DNA of 64,000 nt, taken from the NCBI RefSeq assembly GCF_040786275.1, contig NZ_JBFMVT010000002.1, forward strand, positions 868,001 to 932,000. Direction: 5' to 3'. Positions 38,545 to 50,110 of the stretch are shown in pieces. The translations under genes and the position numbers were made by a program. Source of the DNA: Buttiauxella gaviniae (lineage in GTDB: Bacteria; Pseudomonadota; Gammaproteobacteria; Enterobacterales; Enterobacteriaceae). Within the stretch, counting starts at the first letter, position 1. The number at the start of each line of letters is the position of its first letter. The notes below the pieces were generated by a model. The model had not been told where the DNA came from. It did no database searches and saw only the letters and a program-made list of their open reading frames with translations.

Positions 38545-39732
38545 CTGTTTATCCCCGCTGGCGCGGGGAACACTGTTTTAAAAACATTCAACCATGCAAC
38601 ATGTACGGTTTATCCCCGCTGGCGCGGGGAACACATAGTTAATCCGCCCGTCATTGTGTCCCCTGACGGTTTATCCCCGCTGGCGCGGGGAACACTACAC
38701 AACAATCCCCCATGACGCGCTGTAACGCGGTTTATCCCCGCTGGCGCGGGGAACACCTGCACGGGCCATTTGATCCCGGACGTATTCCCGGTTTATCCCC
38801 GCTGGCGCGGGGAACACTGAAACACCGAGCGAACGGCTGTCCGTCCAAGCGGTTTATCCCCGCTGGCGCGGGGAACACTGTGACGTAGTATTCAATCCAT
38901 TGATTGGCCTCGGTTTATCCCCGCTGGCGCGGGGAACACGATTGCTACATGGGCATTGACCAGATGGGTAACGGTTTATCCCCGCTGGCGCGGGGAACAC
39001 AACACGACCGTCAGATTCAATAAGACGGCGACCGGTTTATCCCCGCTGGCGCGGGGAACACTTTCAATATATTCGGATAGTCTGCCTGGCACACGGTTTA
39101 TCCCCGCTGGCGCGGGGAACACCGTCGTGTTAATGCTGCTCTCTGGACCTGTGTCGGTTTATCCCCGCTGGCGCGGGGAACACCCACGTTGCGTGCGCGT
39201 GCAACATGCTGAATCCGGTTTATCCCCGCTGGCGCGGGGAACACATCCATCACCGTCGAAAGCATATGATAATGCCCGGTTTATCCCCGCTGGCGCGGGG
39301 AACACATTGGCACGCTTCCACAATTCTTTCTCGATACCGGTTTATCCCCGCTGGCGCGGGGAACACTGGACGTGGGGCAATACTTGATTACCGGTGTGCG
39401 GTTTATCCCCGCTGGCGCGGGGAACACACCGGTGTTGCGGCACTCGCTCCCGCCGTGCGCGGTTTATCCCCGCTGGCGCGGGGAACACGCGATAATGATC
39501 AGGTGCCGATGCTCAGTATCCGGTTTATCCCCGCTGGCGCGGGGAACACCCCGTAAGCAAGCTGAAGACGATGCAACGGCCCGGTTTATCCCCGCTGGCG
39601 CGGGGAACACGTGGTACGCAACCAGAACAGGTGCGCCCGCCGCGGTTTATCCCCGCTGGCGCGGGGAACACCCATCGATCTGCAATTCGCCCGTGATATG
39701 CGTCGGTTTATCCCCGCTGGCGCGGGGAACAC
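38545..39732 (-). CRISPR. CRISPR array 1: 20 repeats, 19 spacers (type I-E)
   Basis: Twenty 29-base repeats at an exact 61-base period, with 19 spacers of 32 bases. On the - strand (crRNA sense) the repeat begins GTGTTCCCCGC, has loop GCCA, and ends GCGGGGATAAACCG, the E. coli type I-E repeat. The leader lies at the right end next to cas2, so the oldest repeat is the leftmost; it differs from consensus at one base (CTG for CGG at its edge). All spacers look unrelated to each other. ATAAACCG gives the crRNA 5' handle after Cas6e cutting. Confidence 0.98.
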
Positions 39733-39816: not shown

Positions 39817-40113
<297 letters not shown>

Positions 40114-41028
40114 TCACCCACGGTGCCCAATATCGCCTATTGATGAAGGTTCTGGGATAGCTGGAGGTTGTGAATCTGCAAAAGGAGCTGGAACATCGAT
40201 TTCGCCCGCTGCCAACACTTCTTCTATTAGTGGGATTAGCCGCGCCAGTGTTTTTTGGCTCCGGAAAACATCACGGCAAGCAAGGCGGACTTCCTTATCC
40301 GGGCTATGAGGTGTTTTTGCCGCAATCTCAAAGGCTACAGGAACCACACCCTCAAACTTCACGATGTCTGCAATATCATAAACAAATGAAAGAGGTTTAC
40401 CTGAATGAACAAAGCCGATAGCCGGGGCGTAACCCGCAGCTAGAATGGCCGCTTCAGTTATTCCATACAAACAGGAAGTAGCGGCGCTGATACATTGATT
40501 TACCACATCACCTTTTTCCCAGTCTTTAGGATCGTAACGTCGGCCATTCCATTTCACACCATAACGTTTAGCCAATAACGAATAGGTCTGACGAACTCGG
40601 GCACCTTCAATGCCCCGTAACTGTTCGACGGATCGCCGACCAGGAGCCGGTTCTCCAAACCGAAGTTCAAACATCTTACGTACGACTTTAAGGCGAAGAT
40701 CCTCATCCAGTGCCAGTTTTGCCTGATATAGCAATCGATCCGACCGAGCACCACCCGGTTGGCCACTGGCATACATACGCACCCCGGCTTCCCCCACCCA
40801 GACGAGCAAAGTGCCAGTGGTAGCGGCCAGGCGAACCGCGGCATGAGAAATACGAGTCCCGGGCTCCAGCATGATGCAGGCTATCGATCCCACCGGGATG
40901 TGCGTACGTATCCCGGTTTTGTCGATCAGAACGAAAGCGCCATCCACAACATCTATTTGCCCATATTGCAAAAAGATCATTGAGGTACGGTCTTTCAGAG
41001 GGATGGGTGACAAGGGGATGTAACTCAT
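40114..41028 (-). CDS. cas1: CRISPR-associated endonuclease Cas1 (type I-E)
   Basis: Cas1 is the catalytic subunit of spacer integration. The 304-residue protein is close to E. coli Cas1 throughout. Metal ligands are Glu in GIEGARVRQTY (about 141), His in IGFVHSGKPLSF (about 208) and Asp in DIADIVKFEGV (about 221). The C-terminal tail is proline-rich, as in E. coli. It starts 2 bases after cas6e. Confidence 0.97.
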   Translation of the reverse strand: MSYIPLSPIPLKDRTSMIFLQYGQIDVVDGAFVLIDKTGIRTHIPVGSIACIMLEPGTRISHAAVRLAATTGTLLVWVGEAGVRMYASGQPGGARSDRLLYQAKLALDEDLRLKVVRKMFELRFGEPAPGRRSVEQLRGIEGARVRQTYSLLAKRYGVKWNGRRYDPKDWEKGDVVNQCISAATSCLYGITEAAILAAGYAPAIGFVHSGKPLSFVYDIADIVKFEGVVPVAFEIAAKTPHSPDKEVRLACRDVFRSQKTLARLIPLIEEVLAAGEIDVPAPFADSQPPAIPEPSSIGDIGHRG

Positions 41029-41030
41029 AT

Positions 41031-41684
41031 TTATCTCCGGCGAATCAACATCAGTCCGCAGCCCAGCGCTTTGCTTTTACCCAATCCATTCTTGAGCGTC
41101 TGCATAAAGAGTGGAATATTCATCACCGTCAGGCTTCCTGCAAAGTCCACCGTTGTGAACGTAATGGGATGCTCGCCAGACTTACGCACAAAACGTTGGC
41201 GCTGCTGGCCGACAACTTGTATTTCCTGCGCTTCAACAGCAAAACCTCCTCTTTCGCCCTGTGCTTTTAGCCACGTAAATGCGGCCTTCTCCTGTAACTC
41301 AGCGATTTCACCCGGGCCAGCACCTTGCAATTTAGCCTGGTATTTTGCATCCATTAATACGTCGCTTCGTTTACCGTTGCGCGTCACTACTGGATTGGCC
41401 CGCAGGGCAAATGTGAGTTCCATCCCCTCCACTAATTGCGGATCGAATGGCTTACTGCTGATGGAAAACAATGAGTCTTTGGCAAAAGGGGCAACATCCG
41501 AAAGCAGATAAAAACTCTCCCCTTGCGGGGTTGCCTCATGGCGGAATAAAAACGATCTTTCATCCTGTTGAGTGAAAAGCTGCCATAGCCATTGATGGCT
41601 GGCATAGGGTTGAGCAACCTGCCATTTTTGCCACATGGCAGGAGTCAATTTCGTTAAATCAAGTGATACACGGGAAAGAAACAT
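41031..41684 (-). CDS. cas6e: Cascade crRNA-processing endonuclease Cas6e (CasE)
   Basis: Cas6e cuts pre-crRNA at the base of the repeat hairpin and stays bound to its 3' end. The start MFLSRVSLDLTKL (41684) is chosen because the family begins there and its ATG overlaps the cas5e stop (TGATG). Upstream codons are shadow of cas5e. The 217-residue protein has two ferredoxin folds, the catalytic His in the N-terminal part, and a C terminus GLGKSKALGCGLMLIRRR with the glycine-rich loop of Cas6. It must process three stem types here: those of array 1, array 2 and the mini-array. Confidence 0.94.
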   Translation of the reverse strand: MFLSRVSLDLTKLTPAMWQKWQVAQPYASHQWLWQLFTQQDERSFLFRHEATPQGESFYLLSDVAPFAKDSLFSISSKPFDPQLVEGMELTFALRANPVVTRNGKRSDVLMDAKYQAKLQGAGPGEIAELQEKAAFTWLKAQGERGGFAVEAQEIQVVGQQRQRFVRKSGEHPITFTTVDFAGSLTVMNIPLFMQTLKNGLGKSKALGCGLMLIRRR

Positions 41685-42418
41685 CAGCACTCCTCCGTGA
41701 GATAACCGGAATGCTGTAAGCGAGTCGTAAATTGCCAACGATTCCGGCTGACGGGCTGATCGCCGCGTTGTTGTGTGGCGAATCCAGATACGCCCTGTTG
41801 TTCGCCTTCCCAGACGCAAAATAACTGCGCTGAGCTAATCGCTGCCAGCTCTTCACAATTAAAACCGTAACTGCTGTCTGCATACGCTTTATGAAATGCT
41901 TCGCCCAACGTTCCATCGATAATCTGCGGGTTTAATGGCAAAGCGGGCGGGCAAGATTTTCTTCCCAGATATAGCGGAAATACAGGCGCGATTAATGCGC
42001 AAGCCAGCTCATCAAGCGTGAACGGGGCATCCGATGTTTCCTGCACTGCTACGTGATAACAGGCATCGCAGCGGTACTCTCGCGAAGTCAGCATCGTGCC
42101 GGGCTCTTCCAATGAGAGGATCAGTTCATCGCGCCGGGTGTAATAGCGGCGTTTGCGATTCTCTTTAGGCATCTGCACCGTGTGGTAATCACGCAACCAT
42201 TGCTCACGCGGAGAAAGTGGCCTGATGGCAAAATGGTAGTGTTGATTCATAAGCTGGAGCTGCTGCTCATTTTCGCGCTTAATACCCAGCGCCGCTGCCA
42301 GCAAGCCAAGCAAAGCAGAACGGCTGGGGATTGTTGCTGTGTGGCGAACTTCACCCACCGCAACCTCACCCCAGGACACCAGCGACGCATAGAGTTGAAA
42401 GATCAGATATCGGGACAT
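41684..42418 (-). CDS. cas5e: Cascade subunit Cas5e (CasD)
   Basis: Cas5e binds the crRNA 5' handle in Cascade. The 244-residue protein starts at the ATG 5 bases after AAGGAG; a GTG and another ATG stand directly before it and are also possible. Family stretches are IPSRSALLGLLAAALGIKRE, WLRDYHTVQMPK, and FPLYLGRKSCPPALPL. It is located between cas7e and cas6e. Confidence 0.94.
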   Translation of the reverse strand: MSRYLIFQLYASLVSWGEVAVGEVRHTATIPSRSALLGLLAAALGIKRENEQQLQLMNQHYHFAIRPLSPREQWLRDYHTVQMPKENRKRRYYTRRDELILSLEEPGTMLTSREYRCDACYHVAVQETSDAPFTLDELACALIAPVFPLYLGRKSCPPALPLNPQIIDGTLGEAFHKAYADSSYGFNCEELAAISSAQLFCVWEGEQQGVSGFATQQRGDQPVSRNRWQFTTRLQHSGYLTEEC

Positions 42419-42427
42419 CATCACTCC

Positions 42428-43483
42428 TTACTGGCTAACAAAGTTCAGCAATTCCTGAAGTGTGCCGTCACCAGATTCCACATTCATTTCATACCGCTGT
42501 TCTTCAGTACGCTGCCCGTAAGCGCGAGTGAATTTCTGCTGTTGTTGCTGCAAACGCGTTATTGCCTGAGCATGCTGATCTTCACCTCGCACCGGGCTGA
42601 AAAATGCGACAGATAATGCACGCGGCTGCTGCGTACCCTTTTCAGCCATGACATACGAAGCCCAGGCGCGGGAAGCAAAACTGTTTTGCTTACCACCAGG
42701 TGAAACGGTTAACGCCGTTTCGGTCAATGCTCGCAAGGTACGCTGGACCAGTTCTTCATTACCGTTAAGGTTTTCCAGCAGTAAATCGCGGCTAATGCAG
42801 ATATAGCTATAGAACAGCGCCGAAGCGAACCCCTGCTCCCCCATATGGGCAGAACCTGAATCCTTTTTGCCGTTAAGGTCATCCACAGCGGTAAAGAAAT
42901 CCTCTTCAACCGTTACTGCGCTGACTCCCAACGCATGTGCCACTTGGCAGGCCGCCTCTACGTTGAATTCAGGTTTTGAAGCTAACATACGGCCAAAGAG
43001 TGCAATATCCACCGCCTGCGCATTCGCGCGCAGCAGGTTAAGCTCTTCAGGATTTGCTTCGCGGTTGTCAGTAATCAGCGTTGCCAGTAATTTTTGAATT
43101 TGCTGCTGTTCTTCTGGGCTGGCATGAACCAACTGTTCAATTTCAAGGTTTTCTTCTGCGCTGGCACCTTTATCACTTTTCAATTTGCCGAACTGTTCAG
43201 CAATTTTCCCGGCGATCGAAAGCGCCATTTTTTCCGCAACACCTTTATCACGTAACTGTTTATAGATTTCAGGCCCCAGGCGACGGGTACGGGTACCGAT
43301 ATGGCCATTTAACGCATCTTCAAAAACATCTGAAGTACGCCAGGCGCGTTTCAGGCTTTGCGACGAAACGCGCAGACGCTCCACTCCACCCATGATGGCG
43401 GTTTTTGGGCGACCGGTATCGTCCCGATTTAAATTAGATGGGGCATAAGCGGTAAGGATGTGAAGCTGAATAAACGTTGTCAT
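42428..43483 (-). CDS. cas7e: Cascade backbone subunit Cas7e (CasC)
   Basis: Cas7e forms the helical backbone of Cascade, each copy covering six bases of guide and flipping out the sixth. The 351-residue protein (E. coli 363) has the RAMP-type N terminus FIQLHILTAYAPSNLNRDDTGRPKTAIMGG, then RVSSQSLKRAWR, and the GSAHMGEQGFASALFYSYI stretch. It is in the usual operon position after cse2. Confidence 0.96.
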   Translation of the reverse strand: MTTFIQLHILTAYAPSNLNRDDTGRPKTAIMGGVERLRVSSQSLKRAWRTSDVFEDALNGHIGTRTRRLGPEIYKQLRDKGVAEKMALSIAGKIAEQFGKLKSDKGASAEENLEIEQLVHASPEEQQQIQKLLATLITDNREANPEELNLLRANAQAVDIALFGRMLASKPEFNVEAACQVAHALGVSAVTVEEDFFTAVDDLNGKKDSGSAHMGEQGFASALFYSYICISRDLLLENLNGNEELVQRTLRALTETALTVSPGGKQNSFASRAWASYVMAEKGTQQPRALSVAFFSPVRGEDQHAQAITRLQQQQQKFTRAYGQRTEEQRYEMNVESGDGTLQELLNFVSQ

Positions 43484-43509
43484 GATTATTATTCCATTAA
43501 TTTCAAAGA

Positions 43510-44109
43510 TTATTTTTCGGTTGCCAGCAAATACTCGCTGGCCCAGCGCACACTGAAACGGTTAAAGGGATTACTGTCGACAGGCTGGTTTTCTTCCCGC
43601 TGCTGCCATTCACGCATCCAGAGGAAAATCCCGTCGGCTAACGAAACGATATTGATCCCCTTTTCGCCCCTTAGCTTCACGGCTCGGGTGAGTTGGCTGC
43701 ACAATTCAGCCGGTGTTCTGACGGCAAGCAGACGATCAAAGCGCAAACGCGAAAGGCATGGAGTTGAACCATTTATCTTTTCGCCGAGCTGACGAGCGAA
43801 ACTTACTTTTGGCTCATCAGAACGTGCATGGGCTACAACATAAGCAATAATTGCCAGGGCGAAGGTATCGCTCTGCTTCAGACTTGCGCTTGTAGAAAGT
43901 GACTGATTGAGTTGAAAAAATGCAGTCGTGGTTAACGCTCCAAAAGGCTGAGCACAGCGGCGTAATTCTGCGCGCCAGGCGCGGCCATTCGTCGCAACAC
44001 CCAGACGCTGATTATTGCGCTCCTGCAAAAAATCAAACCAACGGCGCAGCACCTTAGCGGCATCCGGATCGGTGAGTACCACCGGTTTTGCGGTATCAAT
44101 GTCAAACAT
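43510..44109 (-). CDS. cse2: Cascade small subunit Cse2 (CasB)
   Basis: Cse2 forms the dimer that steadies the displaced strand in the Cascade R-loop. The 199-residue helical protein has family sequence LRRWFDFLQERNNQR...WRAELRRC and KINGSTPCLSRLRFDRLL. Its start overlaps the cas8e end by 8 bases, so translation is coupled. It is somewhat longer than E. coli CasB (160). Confidence 0.92.
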   Translation of the reverse strand: MFDIDTAKPVVLTDPDAAKVLRRWFDFLQERNNQRLGVATNGRAWRAELRRCAQPFGALTTTAFFQLNQSLSTSASLKQSDTFALAIIAYVVAHARSDEPKVSFARQLGEKINGSTPCLSRLRFDRLLAVRTPAELCSQLTRAVKLRGEKGINIVSLADGIFLWMREWQQREENQPVDSNPFNRFSVRWASEYLLATEK

Positions 44110-45664
44110 CCTGTTTCTCCTTGTGCTCTTGCGTTAACTGGAGCAACTCTTTTAAACACTTCTGTTTAATGAAATTTTTATTAAGATTGAGTCGAGCACG
44201 CAGAATACGCGTGAGATCGGCCACCTCGTCAGGATTGGTGAATGCACGCTCATCGAATGCGTGGAACAGATAATCGCGCAACGAAACCTGCCAAAGACGC
44301 AAAGCATGACGTGCTTCCGGGAATGTAGCTGACGGGTATTGATTAAGGGTTTTCCACAACTTGCTAAAATCGGCTTCGGTTTGCTGCCAGAACGCAATAT
44401 CGATGAAGCTAAAATCCCCTTTTGCTTCTTTTGGCGTCGTGAACCACGCCTCTTTTAGCGCATAGCGCAGCAGCGGCAGACTGCTGGTTGCAAGTTCAAC
44501 AGCCGTTTGCAGCAGTTCCTTCAATTCATCCTGATGAGCTTTTGGCAAGGTGGATAACGTCAGACGGTGCTCATACCAGCAACGCGCTTTGGCATTATCC
44601 ATGTCATATCCGAAACACCATAAATTGGTCAGATGTGGCACGGTATTCATACGAATAACTTTTGCCGGAAACGTGCAGTTGAGCTTCTCCTCCGACTCTA
44701 CAACCAAACCCAGCCAGTCTTTGTACGCAAGCCCGCCGGGCTGCCCTTTCAAAGGGATCATTGGCGCACTGGCGTCTTTCGCAGCTCGCCGATAAGGTGA
44801 AAGAGGATGAATCCATGTGTCGTACTGCACGCCATAGTTTTTACTGCGCATTCTGGTCAGCAAGGCTTCGTGCATTTCCCCACATAAATCGCATTTCCCC
44901 GACGTCGATTGGCTGAAATCAATCTCAAGACGGCGTGGCATGCCCCAGTAAGCCTGAAGAGGGTGGGCATTTTCTGGAGTCACAATGTTTTTGGGGGTTT
45001 CGCTGCTGCGGGTCGCAGCCAGCCATGGGAAAATCAGAGGCAATTGCTCTTTTTCCCACTTATCACGAGCGGGAAAAACATTTAGCCAAAGCTTTCTCCA
45101 TAAAGCTTCATCCGTTTTTTGCGGAACCAATAGCGTAGTCATTGGCCCCCCGCCACGCATGCTGGTGCGGAACCCGGCTCCGGCAGCAGGAGAGTTGGTC
45201 TGTACTGTATACAAGGCCATTGCGGCACAGTGCGGGCAAAATTGCTGGTAAACACTTCGCTTCACGAAATGATCTTTATTGAGCTTTAGCGTATTTCCGC
45301 CCGGCGCATCCACCAACAACCCTGCAATCGATGAAGACTCAACGGGTAAGGTATCTAAATCCTGCAAAAAGGCGGGCTTTTGTGGGCCGAAATTAAATGC
45401 CTCAGCAATCCCTTCCAGTGCGTTATGCCAGTCTGACGGTTTAATCCCCTCTTCCCAGACTTCATCCCACTCTTCCTCATCTCGTGGTGGCGTCACGGTC
45501 TGCATCAGGCCAATCAGCAGTTGATAAGCGGCCCCCTGAAAATCCGCACGTGGCCACACCAACTCAACAATGTCATTATCAAAGAGCTGCTGTGGCGATA
45601 TTTTCCTGCGCTGCCCAGAGCGGTCGATAACGGGTAGCCAACGTTCTGTGATAAGGCAAAACAT
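44102..45664 (-). CDS. cas8e: Cascade large subunit Cas8e (Cse1/CasA)
   Basis: Cas8e recognises the PAM and recruits Cas3. The 520-residue protein begins MFCLITERWLPVIDRSGQRRKISPQQLFDN, close to other Cse1 proteins. It has the N-terminal globular domain with the QTNSPAAGAGFRTSMRGGGPMTTLL loop, a Cys pair in CDLCGEMHEALL, and a C-terminal helical bundle. AAGGAG precedes the ATG. It is the first gene of the Cascade-cas1-cas2 operon, separated from cas3 by a 400-bp control region. Confidence 0.95.
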   Translation of the reverse strand: MFCLITERWLPVIDRSGQRRKISPQQLFDNDIVELVWPRADFQGAAYQLLIGLMQTVTPPRDEEEWDEVWEEGIKPSDWHNALEGIAEAFNFGPQKPAFLQDLDTLPVESSSIAGLLVDAPGGNTLKLNKDHFVKRSVYQQFCPHCAAMALYTVQTNSPAAGAGFRTSMRGGGPMTTLLVPQKTDEALWRKLWLNVFPARDKWEKEQLPLIFPWLAATRSSETPKNIVTPENAHPLQAYWGMPRRLEIDFSQSTSGKCDLCGEMHEALLTRMRSKNYGVQYDTWIHPLSPYRRAAKDASAPMIPLKGQPGGLAYKDWLGLVVESEEKLNCTFPAKVIRMNTVPHLTNLWCFGYDMDNAKARCWYEHRLTLSTLPKAHQDELKELLQTAVELATSSLPLLRYALKEAWFTTPKEAKGDFSFIDIAFWQQTEADFSKLWKTLNQYPSATFPEARHALRLWQVSLRDYLFHAFDERAFTNPDEVADLTRILRARLNLNKNFIKQKCLKELLQLTQEHKEKQDV

Positions 45665-45682: not shown

Positions 45683-45699
45683 GCCCCCACCCTAGGGGC
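45683..45699 (-). promoter_or_regulatory. Hairpin just upstream of the cas8e ribosome site
   Basis: On the - strand GCCCC-TAGGGTG-GGGGC is followed by TATTTTAAAGGAG, the last bases being the cas8e ribosome site. It may be a weak attenuator or an mRNA 5'-end structure. The role is not known. Confidence 0.4.
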
Positions 45700-45895
45700 A
45701 TTGAGCAATCCTTACAAACCAAACCATAAGAATGAAATGATTAATTCCCACTCACCATGCTGGCGACGTTTAAAGATTATTTTCATTTACATCCATTTTG
45801 TTATTTGACTCCTCACAGAACGCTACTGTTATACAGGCTCGGCAACGATATGTAGTGTCCACCTTATTTGGCGTTCTAATGTTTGCCGCCAACAC

Positions 45896-45924
45896 AGATT
45901 ACGCTCAAGCAAAGTCAATATCAA
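45896..45924 (-). promoter_or_regulatory. Candidate promoter of the cas8e-cas2 operon (Pcas)
   Basis: On the - strand, TTGATA (-35, 45924-45919), an exact 17-bp spacer and TAATCT (-10, 45901-45896) form the best promoter in the 400-bp cas3-cas8e gap. The start would be near 45889, leaving a leader of about 225 bases. The same gap in E. coli holds the H-NS- and LeuO-controlled Pcas. Confidence 0.5.
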
Positions 45925-45925
45925 T

Positions 45926-45948
45926 AAGTGTATAGTTAGAAAAGGATT
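45926..45948 (+). promoter_or_regulatory. Self-target (PAM plus protospacer) of the mini-array guide
   Basis: AAG, the preferred type I-E PAM, stands at 45926-45928. It is followed by TGTATAGTTAGAAAAG (45929-45944), equal to the first 16 bases of the mini-array guide except at position 6. The PAM lies one base from the -35 of the candidate Pcas, and the far end of the protospacer touches the -35 of the + strand promoter. Cascade bound here would be expected to block both. Confidence 0.8.
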
Positions 45949-45975
45949 AATATTTAAAAGTTAATAGAAGATAAT
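45947..45975 (+). promoter_or_regulatory. Candidate + strand promoter of the mini-array
   Basis: TTAATA (-35, 45947-45952), a 17-bp spacer and GATAAT (-10, 45970-45975) would start RNA near 45982, about 20 bases before the first repeat. It is divergent from Pcas, in the manner of the anti-Pcas promoter known in E. coli, for which I know no assigned function. Confidence 0.45.
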
Positions 45976-46003: not shown

Positions 46004-46081
46004 GTATTCCCCGCAACTGCGGGGATAAACCGTGTATTGTTAGAAAAGCTATTCGTTCCCCACGTCAGTGGGGACTTCCCT
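46004..46081 (+). ncRNA. crRNA-like mini-array (two degenerate repeats, one 20-nt guide), CreR-type candidate
   Basis: The first repeat (46004-46032) begins GTATTCCCCGC, has loop AACT and ends GCGGGGATAAACCG: an intact array-1-type stem and a perfect 8-base handle. The guide TGTATTGTTAGAAAAGCTAT (46033-46052) follows. The second repeat (46053-46081) keeps an array-2-type stem, GTTCCCCAC-GTCA-GTGGGGAC, but its handle has decayed to CTTCCCT. Cas6e cutting would yield a single crRNA of about 49 bases instead of 61. The guide is 12 bases shorter than normal, i.e. two Cas7 steps. It reads opposite to both arrays and into the 3' end of cas3. Relic repeats are the alternative; the PAM-flanked self-target argues for function. 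Confidence 0.8.
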
Positions 46082-48716
46082 CAAGACCTGATTCTTTACT
46101 GTAAAACTCTGCAACCTTATCCCGCTCCAGAAGAGCTACCTGGGCTGCGGGATTGCGGATAGTTAACCGCATTTTTTCTAGCGCCTCGCCTTCCAGATGC
46201 GGGATTTTCTGAGCCAGCGTTTTCCACAACGAAGGCCGGATGGACAAGCGACTTTGTTCCCAGGGGTACGCATCCCCTTCAGCATAAGGTTCGCCATCTT
46301 GCCAGGTGAGATAGAGATCAACCGTGTCTGCATTCAAACGAGTCGCCAGATCAAGATTATCCCAGGGATAATCACTGGCTTTACGTGCATAACCCTCGTC
46401 GCGCCGCAGCAGCGTTTGAGCGGCAATTCCACTGGCGCTGAAGCTTTTCCCCATTGCCAGATCGCTTGCAGGCTGTAGATCAGATGGCGCGGCAATCCAT
46501 TCCGCATACACACTTTCGACTAGTTCACGGGCATCTTCCGGCATCCGAATTGCCCCTTTCTCACGGAGAATTTGCTGTGTGCGCCAGAGGCAAGCGTGAT
46601 CGGCATAGACAAAACCCGTTCCCGGGATAGATTCCTTTAACCAGTCAGATTCAGGGTCGGTCTGCCAGGCGGGTGCCAAAATATGGAGTACCGGAGGGAT
46701 TCGCGTTCCACGTTGATGCCGTTGCAGGCGACCTGCACGTTGAATAAGTAAGTCGATAGGGGCCAAGTCACTAATCATCACGTCCAGATCAATATCCAGA
46801 CTTTGTTCAATAACCTGTGTGGCGATAAGAACCTTGCTACGCCGACCAGCGGCGGTGCTTTCTTTACCAAATTGGTCCAGAGCCTGGGTTTCGACCTTCA
46901 TCCGGTCAACAAAAGCAAAGCGGCTATGGAACAGCAGTAAATCCTCTTCAGGAAGGGTTCCGCACTCCTTCAGTTGGCGATAAACCTCAATCGCTTCATC
47001 CACAGTATTTCGAATCCAGCAGATGCATTGCCCGAGACTTACTGCCTGTTTGATTAGATCAACAGCCTGTTGCGTTTCTGTGAGCCACGCTACCCCCACC
47101 TCACGGGAAACTTCAGGACGTGTGGAAGTAAAGCTTTCATGAAGCGTTTCGGTAGTCAGCAGAGAAAACCAGGGGTATTGCGCATCCGGAGTCGGGTTGG
47201 GTAATTTGCCCCCCGTTCCTTTCTGGAATGCGCGCAGAAGTTTGTTACGCAATGAGTAAGGCAATGTGGCGCTGAGGATGATCGCACTCCCGCCCTGGGC
47301 CGCATGGAAGGTGAGCAAACCTTCCAGAAGACGAACCATATAGCTGTCATAAGCATGGACTTCATCTAAAATCAGTAACTTGCCAAAAAGGCCAAGTAAC
47401 CGCAGTGACTGGTGTTTAAAAGGCATCACCGCCATCAATACCTGATCGAGCGTACCGACACCGACTTCAGCCAGTAGCGATTTTTTCCGTGAATCCGCAA
47501 ACCAGGCATTGCAGGCGCTGCTGGCGGAACTTTCACCAGCCTCATAGTTAAGCTGCCCGCGATTCTCATCCCCCCATAATGAGTGGTTAAAATCATCAGA
47601 CATATGGCGCGCACCATGCGCCAGAACCAGCGAAGGCAAACTGCTTTGCGTAAACAAAGCCCGATACGCCAGAGAGAGGCGACGGAACATGGCGTTTGAA
47701 GTCGCCATCGTAGGAAGCCCGACATACAGGCTATCGCTCTTTCCGGCTGACATCAGGCGGTGGGCCAGAATCAGTGCAGCTTCCGTTTTCCCGGCCCCAG
47801 TAACATCTTCGAGAACCAGCAACTGCGGGCCCGGGGCAGAAATATCGACTTCTAACGCTTTTTGCTGAAGCGGTGTCAAATGTTCAATAAAGGGAAATAA
47901 CGCCTGATAAGAATGAAAAGTCTGTGTTGTGGAAGGATTTGGTAATTGCTGCAATGCTCGTTGCGCCAGGATTTGGGCTTTTTGCCAGTACTCAGCGAGA
48001 GGCAAAATATCACTCACCAGGGGAAAGTAAGACTGGTTTGAACCTAGCCAATCAGCCAGCACCGTCAACCCAGCCAGCAGCCAACTACTCTGCTTCAACT
48101 TATCTCGCCAGTCTTTGTCAGCAAAGAATCCAGGTATGGCATCAACGTCTAGTAATAACGAAAGGTCGGAAAGCCAATTCTCCGCAGCGATTTTATCCTC
48201 TTCAGTAAATGCCTGAGTTCCTTTGACTTCAGTTTCTGGCGGTTTTCCATGGTGCCCCGTTGCGATGCTAAACCAGCAATCAAGCGCATAACGGGATTTC
48301 TTTTTTTGTTCACAAATAGGAATGGCGCTGCAAAGACCTTCTTGCCAGCGCAGTGAAATATAGTCTTTCCACAGCCAGTAACCCAATGAATCATGGCGGG
48401 CGCAGTATGCTTTGCCGCTCACGGCTGGAACTAATAATGGATGTGCCCCGCGAAATAACTGCTGGAAGCCGCGAGCAAATTTTCCGAGATCATGAGCGCC
48501 GAGAATCCATGCAAACCAGCGAGCGGCTTCATCGCGATTAAATCCAAGCTCAGCAAAAATATCTGCTGCATGAAAGTGGTTACTCATCACCATCTGCCAG
48601 CCACACGCGGCAACATCCAGACTGTGCCAGGGCAATAAATGATAAGCCGAACTATCAGGGTCGTCTTTTCGACTCGTTTTTCCCCAATAGTGGAAATAAT
48701 CGGATTGCTGATTCAT
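46065..48716 (-). CDS. cas3: CRISPR-associated helicase-nuclease Cas3 (type I-E)
   Basis: Cas3 is recruited to Cascade R-loops and unwinds and shreds the target. The 883-residue protein has an N-terminal HD nuclease (His in LLPWHSLDVAACG, HD in GAHDLGKFARGF, HH in TGHHGKP). An SF2 helicase follows: Walker A DVTGAGKTEAAL near 306, DEVHAYD near 450, SATLP, and QRAGRLQRHQR near 660. A C-terminal domain completes it. It is transcribed separately from Cascade. Its last codons and stop lie inside the second hairpin of the mini-array. Confidence 0.96.
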   Translation of the reverse strand: MNQQSDYFHYWGKTSRKDDPDSSAYHLLPWHSLDVAACGWQMVMSNHFHAADIFAELGFNRDEAARWFAWILGAHDLGKFARGFQQLFRGAHPLLVPAVSGKAYCARHDSLGYWLWKDYISLRWQEGLCSAIPICEQKKKSRYALDCWFSIATGHHGKPPETEVKGTQAFTEEDKIAAENWLSDLSLLLDVDAIPGFFADKDWRDKLKQSSWLLAGLTVLADWLGSNQSYFPLVSDILPLAEYWQKAQILAQRALQQLPNPSTTQTFHSYQALFPFIEHLTPLQQKALEVDISAPGPQLLVLEDVTGAGKTEAALILAHRLMSAGKSDSLYVGLPTMATSNAMFRRLSLAYRALFTQSSLPSLVLAHGARHMSDDFNHSLWGDENRGQLNYEAGESSASSACNAWFADSRKKSLLAEVGVGTLDQVLMAVMPFKHQSLRLLGLFGKLLILDEVHAYDSYMVRLLEGLLTFHAAQGGSAIILSATLPYSLRNKLLRAFQKGTGGKLPNPTPDAQYPWFSLLTTETLHESFTSTRPEVSREVGVAWLTETQQAVDLIKQAVSLGQCICWIRNTVDEAIEVYRQLKECGTLPEEDLLLFHSRFAFVDRMKVETQALDQFGKESTAAGRRSKVLIATQVIEQSLDIDLDVMISDLAPIDLLIQRAGRLQRHQRGTRIPPVLHILAPAWQTDPESDWLKESIPGTGFVYADHACLWRTQQILREKGAIRMPEDARELVESVYAEWIAAPSDLQPASDLAMGKSFSASGIAAQTLLRRDEGYARKASDYPWDNLDLATRLNADTVDLYLTWQDGEPYAEGDAYPWEQSRLSIRPSLWKTLAQKIPHLEGEALEKMRLTIRNPAAQVALLERDKVAEFYSKESGLEGSPH

Positions 48717-48834: not shown

Positions 48835-50023
48835 CTTTTCTCCCCCACAAGTGTGGGGAACACAGATAGTCGATGTAGTCAGCGTTGTGGAAGTCCGGTT
48901 TATCCCCACTCGCGTGGGGAACACGTCCGCCGCAGTGATTGGGTCAGCCATGGTTACGGTTTATCCCCACTCGCGTGGGGAACACACAACCTGACTCTTC
49001 AGCTCGTCACGCTCTGCCGGTTTATCCCCACTCGCGTGGGGAACACCCGACGCTGTTTCGCTGCACGTCGCTCTGCTGCGGTTTATCCCCACTCGCGTGG
49101 GGAACACTTCGGTCATTTCGATAGTTCCCTCTGTTGTTGCGGTTTATCCCCACTCGCGTGGGGAACACTCATGGATGCTGCCCAATTTAACGAATCGCAA
49201 CGGTTTATCCCCACTCGCGTGGGGAACACTATGCGTCATTTCAGGACAGATGGCGTATATGCGGTTTATCCCCACTCGCGTGGGGAACACCAAAGCCATT
49301 TTCGGTCACACAGAAACGGATGCGGTTTATCCCCACTCGCGTGGGGAACACGCTGGTAGAGGCGCAGGATGATGATGATATAACGGTTTATCCCCACTCG
49401 CGTGGGGAACACATAAACTTACTCAGCATGGTTTCATATATGGTCGGTTTATCCCCACTCGCGTGGGGAACACTGAGCCATTTTCTCCAGGCTTATCAGC
49501 AGACTCGGTTTATCCCCACTCGCGTGGGGAACACCCTCTGGATAATTTCAACCAATCGCCTGACATCGGTTTATCCCCACTCGCGTGGGGAACACGGGAA
49601 ATCACTAGCTGGAGAGGCTGGCTATGGTCGGTTTATCCCCACTCGCGTGGGGAACACACCATTCGGCATTGTTCGGCAATCAGCGCCGCCGGTTTATCCC
49701 CACTCGCGTGGGGAACACTTGCGGCAGTAACAAAAGCTGTGGTTGCGATGCGGTTTATCCCCACTCGCGTGGGGAACACTTCCTCTCCCGCCAGCAGCTG
49801 GCCTTTTTCATCGGTTTATCCCCACTCGCGTGGGGAACACATGTCGGCCGGAAGGTAACTGACAGCCATATCCGGTTTATCCCCACTCGCGTGGGGAACA
49901 CGTTTAGCACGGTAATCGCCGCACCTGATGCGCCGGTTTATCCCCACTCGCGTGGGGAACACGCTCTTGTCACCGCGTGGCAAGTTGTAGAACGCGGTTT
50001 ATCCCCACTCGCGTGGGGAACAC
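48835..50023 (-). CRISPR. CRISPR array 2: 20 repeats (last one degenerate), 19 spacers
   Basis: Nineteen consensus repeats plus a decayed terminal repeat at the left (48835-48863, eight mismatches). On the - strand the repeat is GTGTTCCCCAC, loop GCGA, then GTGGGGATAAACCG: two compensated stem changes and a different loop compared with array 1. The period is 61 bases except for one spacer of 33 (49596-49628). The leader is at the right end. The array lies about 120 bases upstream of cas3. Confidence 0.98.
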
Positions 50024-50110
50024 TCTAAAAATATCTTACTGATCTATAAATATTTTTTTAACTTTAAAAATCCACCGGTTTTTTCTAATTTTTAAAGTGC
50101 ACAACTCTTT
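50024..50110 (-). promoter_or_regulatory. Leader of CRISPR array 2
   Basis: AT-rich sequence right after the newest repeat, sharing TCTAAAA, AAAATCCACC and CTAATTTTTAAAG with the array 1 leader. This marks the transcription start side and the integration end. The rest of the gap to cysH (50111-50320) shows nothing I recognise. Confidence 0.75.

Follow-up and report, generated by a model that had tools for sequence, protein, structure and literature searches.

RNA-guided feedback on cas genes by cas-regulating RNAs (CreRs), for which Liu et al. 2023 (doi 10.1016/j.chom.2023.08.005) is reportedly the primary paper, is already known. According to the available excerpts of three articles, CreRs autorepress type I-B, I-E and V-A effectors through partial complementarity to the cas promoter (PMC13131331, PMC12737573, PMC12948488). 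The locus described here resembles the CreRs in those excerpts, as it contains a mini-CRISPR whose predicted product is a crRNA-like RNA with a partial match to a predicted cas promoter. It is also similar to CreA of the CreTA module, for which two degenerate repeats and a PAM-flanked target in a promoter are described in the accessible text (PMC8501985, PMC9458426). CreA of Halobacterium hubeiense is reported to pair at positions 1–5 and 7–11, leaving 6 and 12 unpaired (PMC8501985), and the same seed pairing, with 6 and 12 free, is found here. In contrast, CreA is described as repressing an RNA toxin, whereas the target here lies ahead of the cas operon and, in certain species, of a small peptide gene as well. 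In CrePA, according to the accessible text, a gene is repressed under the guidance of Cascade and set free by anti-CRISPR proteins (PMC12737573), a release that we also predict for this locus. Unlike CrePA, whose CreP is a KilA-N type protein, the locus has no gene for a KilA-N type toxin following the target, and no ORF of at least 80 aa lies between 45665 and 46064.

Work on Cascade binding gives the frame for short pairings. For E. coli, the excerpt at hand states that AAG plus 5 nt is often enough for Cascade binding and that more than 18 bp are needed for type I-E interference; off-target binding left transcription unaltered, and those matches were mostly shorter (PMC5904413). A 24-nt spacer of a type I-B system is reported to repress without interference or priming (PMC10989794).

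A degenerate mini-array matches the predicted cas promoter region

The window, which is the whole 64,000-nt stretch of Buttiauxella gaviniae DNA that was analysed, contains a complete type I-E operon on the minus strand (cas3, cse1, cse2, cas7, cas5, cas6e, cas1 and cas2, by Pfam). The mini-array, hereafter creR, is located between cas3 and cse1 and is oriented towards cas3. The features of the locus are as follows.

38545–39732, minus strand: CRISPR array 1, 61-nt period
39817–44109, minus strand: cse2, cas7e, cas5e, cas6e, cas1 and cas2 (Pfam matches)
44102–45664, minus strand: cse1 (cas8e), the first of the large genes in the cas operon (PF09481)
45926–45928, plus strand: PAM of the self-target, AAG
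45929–45944, plus strand: CreR target (protospacer), TGTATAGTTAGAAAAG
46004–46032, plus strand: first I-E repeat, degenerate, with intact hairpin (−14.3 kcal/mol) and intact 5´ handle ATAAACCG
46033–46052, plus strand: spacer of ~20 nt, by distance to the second hairpin; the guide is its first 16 nt
46053–46081, plus strand: second repeat, degenerate, with intact hairpin (−13.5 kcal/mol) and partly degenerate handle
46025–46073, plus strand: predicted mature CreR RNA, with an 8-nt handle, a 20-nt spacer and a 21-nt 3´ part
46065–48716, minus strand: cas3 (PF18019, PF22590)
48896–50024, minus strand: CRISPR array 2, mostly 61-nt period

The ends of the mature CreR are placed according to standard Cas6e processing. 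The spacer is only ~20 nt long, instead of 32 nt, because the second repeat starts at about 46053. As repeat 1 retains hairpin and handle and repeat 2 retains the hairpin, each repeat has kept the half that one crRNA needs. The second repeat overlaps the cas3 stop codon (46065–46067), and creR and cas3 are therefore convergent and overlapping.

The guide TGTATTGTTAGAAAAG (46033–46048) follows directly on the 3´ side of the repeat and starts 104 bases after the start of the target. The first-pass annotation had described this site as a match of 15 of 16 bases with a lone mismatch at position 6, ending at position 16 and directly preceded by AAG in the right orientation, all of which is borne out, with pairing stopping at 45944; the interval that it gave, 45926–45948, holds the PAM and the match and runs 4 bases past the match. 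The pattern TGTATWGTTAGAAAAG occurs twice in the 4,764,459-base genome, once as guide and once as target, and nowhere else. Against its own target the guide scores 15, while the maximum for 200 shuffled guides in the same region is 8 (0/200).

Two degenerate repeats thus stand near the cas genes, the cognate effector operon is present, and the guide is complementary, to a limited extent, to a PAM-flanked site within the predicted cas promoter region. We read the mini-array as a type I-E CreR that would silence the predicted cas promoter, and assign this reading, which is based on sequence comparison, a probability of about 0.86. No structured RNA in Rfam matches the locus at gathering score; a match to RsmY below threshold (E 0.08) was dismissed. 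The folding of the leader is ordinary (z −0.22), and hence no structured leader is claimed. Searches of E. coli genomes and plasmids gave no match to the DNA of the locus.

Guide/target pairs recur upstream of cse1

Relatives of cse1 were present in 61 of 392 genomes of the family, at 62 places, and loci were taken from the best 30 of the 62, one being the window's own. Genome contigs provided 58 loci, 4 of which were dropped since they lacked a cse1 start. The resulting 87 regions, three further copies of the window included, comprise 78 distinct regions (79 with L111). A later set from genomes of the class, with a match in 21 of 369, contributed 22 new loci, 3 of which were skipped for want of a cse1 start, leaving 19 and a total of 97 cse1 upstream regions (78 + 19).

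Both a repeat-preceded guide and a site that matches it were present in 26 of the 78 distinct regions and in 6 of the later 19; five of the six are new, and the other, L117, is the L111 locus, known from an earlier search for the repeat-spacing pattern. A chance origin of the guide/target match is unlikely given 32 such pairs in 97 regions. Two loci found afterwards are kept outside the statistics: L134, with creR, AAG and mismatches at 6, 13 and 14, and L135, where no pair was found. The 32 guides form 25 clusters and are therefore mostly unrelated in sequence; species differ in their guides, but every guide is matched by a target of its own in the cse1 upstream region. These searches found no creR in 65 of the 97 regions, which indicates that such loci can do without it. 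Judged by cse1, the nearest relative among the matches listed (L010, 74%) has a cas3–cse1 gap of ~30–40 nt and no creR.

The repeat-spacing search returned 15 short-spacer mini-arrays, including that of the window. All five that are situated between cas3 and cse1 have a nearby match (0/200 shuffles each), and none of the ten located elsewhere does. A short-spacer sequence resembling a mini-array is shared by L102, L103 and L104, which belong to one genus; no cse1 or cas3 match and no nearby self-match were found on the 3-kb locus.

Small ORFs between the target and cse1

Two candidate features occupy the stretch between the target and cse1.

45712–45786 (coding 45786–45715), minus strand: unannotated 24-aa ORF MKIIFKRRQHGEWELIISFLWFGL
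45683–45699, minus strand: terminator-like hairpin separating the small ORF from cse1, from the consensus scan only (2 in the region, 0.6 expected)

The small ORF is absent from the first-pass annotation. Its presence raises the alternative of a CreTA-like module, in which the guide would mainly repress the small peptide gene, a possible toxin, and the cell would depend on intact Cascade; repression of cas would come along because peptide and cas share a promoter. We consider this unlikely, although conserved small ORFs between target and cse1 speak for it. The window ORF has a homologue of 54% identity in L012, a locus of another genus that carries a creR of its own, with a guide unlike that of the window, and 17 of their 27 nucleotide differences are at third codon positions. 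The codon changes, however, are 8 synonymous to 10 non-synonymous, and the window ORF has no clear ribosome-binding site, being unlisted by a ribosome-site filter that was run on 17 of the 32 creR loci. Among 40 relatives, only its own copy was found.

A second family, of ~36 aa with a single membrane span, also speaks for such a module. It is encoded upstream of cse1 in 13 loci (L053, L054, L059, L061–L067, L069, L081 and L083), 12 of which have creR; creR was not detected in L066, which counts against the module. The differences between nine members fall at third positions in 743 of 1462 pairwise cases, and changes between close pairs are mainly synonymous (L059 versus L064: 16 synonymous, 2 non-synonymous). 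The family has no match in the creR-less loci L051, L055–L058 and L068, which presumably belong to Methylococcales; among these, L055 is sparsely covered upstream, and the gap is short in L051, L058 and L068. Elsewhere, two weak matches occur in 369 genomes. A third family, of ~55 aa, is present in Pectobacterium, Brenneria and relatives. It accompanies creR in L039 and L047 but is frameshifted in L041 beside an intact creR, and with no creR found it is whole in L032 and reduced to its C-terminal part in L029, L030 and L042–L044. Six of the small peptides have no Pfam or NCBIfam match, and the best PHROGs match of six peptides has an E value of 0.057.

About ten creR loci have a target–cse1 gap of ~36–190 nt with none of these peptide families, and the peptide is therefore not obligatory. 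Moreover, one known CreT works through overuse of a rare codon and not through a peptide. We retain the reading as a CreR acting on cas, to which the peptide would be an accessory: some CreR promoters may also gate a peptide, which we interpret as being under predicted CreR control in some lineages, with a toxin role as a possibility.

The target adjoins two divergent predicted promoters

Three promoter-like sites were predicted around the target.

45896–45924, minus strand: predicted cas promoter, TTGATA (45924–45919), 17 nt, TAATCT (45901–45896); top weight-matrix score of the interval in the cas direction, with comparative support
45776–45804, minus strand: alternative cas-direction promoter-like site, ATAACA-17-AATAAT; consensus scan and weight matrix; overlaps the start of the small ORF
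45947–45975, plus strand: predicted creR promoter, TTAATA, 17 nt, GATAAT; consensus scan, weight matrix and comparative support

With weight matrices that were not fitted, the two cas-direction sites score 9.1 (TTGATA-17-TAATCT) and 8.3 (ATAACA-17-AATAAT). The predicted cas promoter is a modest one, with 3 of 6 consensus matches in its −10 element (TAATCT), and is situated ~225 nt upstream of cse1; its −35 element is separated from the PAM by one base. On the other side, the −35 element of the predicted creR promoter begins at 45947, two bases past the match. The first-pass annotation had placed the site between two divergent candidate promoters and next to the −35 of the cas promoter. The predicted cas-direction −35 does adjoin the target, but this promoter is absent from the output of a plain consensus scan, whose sole cas-direction site is 45804–45776 and which yields 2 promoters in all versus 1.1 from shuffles. 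The site at 45804–45776 is nearer to cse1 and would be beyond the reach of Cascade at the target.

Comparison across loci was carried out with 31 of the 32 pairs, L089 being omitted. The −35 score in the cas direction is highest for hexamers that start on the bases complementary to the AA of the PAM. When the flanks were shuffled with the target fixed, the cas-direction signal had z scores of 9.1 (wide window) and 5.1 (narrow window; 0/300 each), and the creR promoter had z scores of 5.6–5.8 (0/300). A first promoter test, based on random placement, was confounded by base composition and was dropped in favor of the flank shuffles. Across the set, the target is thus predicted to be placed between two divergent promoters, touching both.

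The contact with the creR promoter would also suit a guide that mainly represses its own promoter and has little effect on cas, the more so if the site at 45804–45776, which would escape Cascade at the target, drives cas. We regard this as quite improbable: the alignment with the cas −35 element is sharper than that with the creR promoter, and in L089 creR is on the cas strand and the target is less than 60 nt from cse1, not between divergent promoters. The arrangement in L089 speaks for cas as the element that is controlled throughout.

PAM and mismatch pattern across pairs

The PAM is AAG in 31 of the 32 pairs and AAA in one. The number of pairs (of 32) with a mismatch at positions 1 to 20 is 1, 0, 0, 1, 0, 22, 1, 0, 0, 0, 2, 18, 1, 2, 7, 13, 18, 22, 23 and 22. 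Positions 6 and 12 thus account for 40 of the 48 mismatches within positions 1–14, with 40 of 64 cells mismatched versus 8 of 384 at the other positions of this range (Fisher p ~3e-32). The contrast persists with one pair for each of the 25 guide clusters (31 of 50 versus 8 of 300; p ~5e-24). Pairing fades at positions 15–17, and from position 18 the mismatch rate is near that of random sequence.

The first target searches ignored mismatches at every sixth base, which may have biased them towards such a periodicity, and the later searches weighted all positions equally; one of these all-position searches added a bonus of 0.5 for AAG and another had no PAM term. The five later pairs alone are mismatched in 8 of 10 cells at positions 6 and 12 versus 0 of 60 elsewhere, and all 8 of their mismatches fall there (binomial p ~2e-7). 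Scoring that had no PAM term placed AAG at 26 of 74 best matches, and shuffled guides reached at most one mismatch in 5 of 1580 trials. The pair of L019/L039, found in the first target searches, is not the best match of its region under this scoring.

The pattern fits the flipped-out bases of Cascade and a pairing length of ~15–17 that appears to be under selection. The first-pass annotation held that base 6 is flipped out and not read. The accumulation of mismatches at 6 and 12 agrees with this, but position 6 was matched in 45% of off-target Cascade sites according to the available part of the E. coli study (PMC5904413). A decayed, functionless remnant array whose 17-nt match arose by chance or by duplication is hardly credible. 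The repeats are degenerate and local duplication can give a 17-nt direct repeat, but neither decay nor duplication would be expected to produce covariation across 32 loci, AAG at 31 of them and mismatches with a 6/12 period; this 32-pair pattern of PAM and mismatches contradicts the remnant reading for the class.

A model for feedback on the cas operon

What the DNA itself shows is the anatomy of creR and a pairing that is conserved, covaries and has a 6-nt mismatch period; from published work on CreR and CreA we infer that creR is transcribed and processed, that it represses cas, and that this repression can be relieved. Transcription of the two-repeat mini-CRISPR would run towards cas3, and its short, crRNA-like product would have an intact handle at the 5´ end, followed by ~20 nt of spacer and a hairpin at the 3´ end. 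Once loaded with this CreR, Cascade would pair over ~15 nt next to the AAG PAM, in the interval from which the creR and cas promoters diverge, and would cover the −35 region of cas. Such pairing is probably too short to license Cas3, so that Cascade would repress rather than cut. Surplus free Cascade would thereby lower cas transcription, and array crRNAs or anti-Cascade proteins would relieve the repression. This feedback interpretation is well supported by the comparison of species and matches the published CreR mechanism.

Autorepression by type I-E Cascade thus appears to have been kept by selection across many gammaproteobacteria despite the change of guides. The evolutionary record would read out the rules of Cascade, namely an AAG PAM, indifference to bases 6 and 12, and pairing below the Cas3 threshold. 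What could be new is the way in which evolution displays the 6-nt period, together with the two spacer sizes and the peptide genes that would share the promoter: within the accessible text of CreR reviews, we found no 6/12 mismatch period across natural CreRs, no two spacer sizes and no leader peptides. The locus offers an easily testable enterobacterial case and points to unannotated peptides under the same putative control. A more speculative reading, which we hold to be rather unlikely, is that in many gammaproteobacteria transcription from the promoter silenced by CreR covers first a small peptide, often a membrane-spanning one, and after it the Cascade genes; loss or inhibition of Cascade would then release new Cas proteins together with a peptide effector. 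If true, one promoter would combine autoregulation with a trigger for addiction or abortive infection.

Spacer size classes and variant loci

Measured by the distance to the second hairpin, the spacer is 20–23 nt long in 17 pairs, 25 nt in one and 31–34 nt in 14; the window, with 20 nt, belongs to the short class. The second hairpin of L027 and L038 was set by eye, since the automatic pick was a later hairpin. A step of ~12 nt corresponds to the span of two Cas7 units plus one Cse2; this suggests that Cascade is smaller in the short class, as if this class assembled a complex dedicated to repression.

The long spacers often fold back on their own seed (L053, L059, L061–L063, L067, L081 and L083), and this self-complementarity is strongest in L063, L081, L061 and L053. 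The combined p value for the 14 long-class loci is ~8e-6, a figure confounded by kinship, and none of the 17 short spacers shows it. L024 differs in that another spacer, nearly of full length, and a third repeat come after the creR mini-array. An ORF pair, which we take to resemble hicAB, is located between cas3 and cse1 in L056, L057, L059, L062 and L063.
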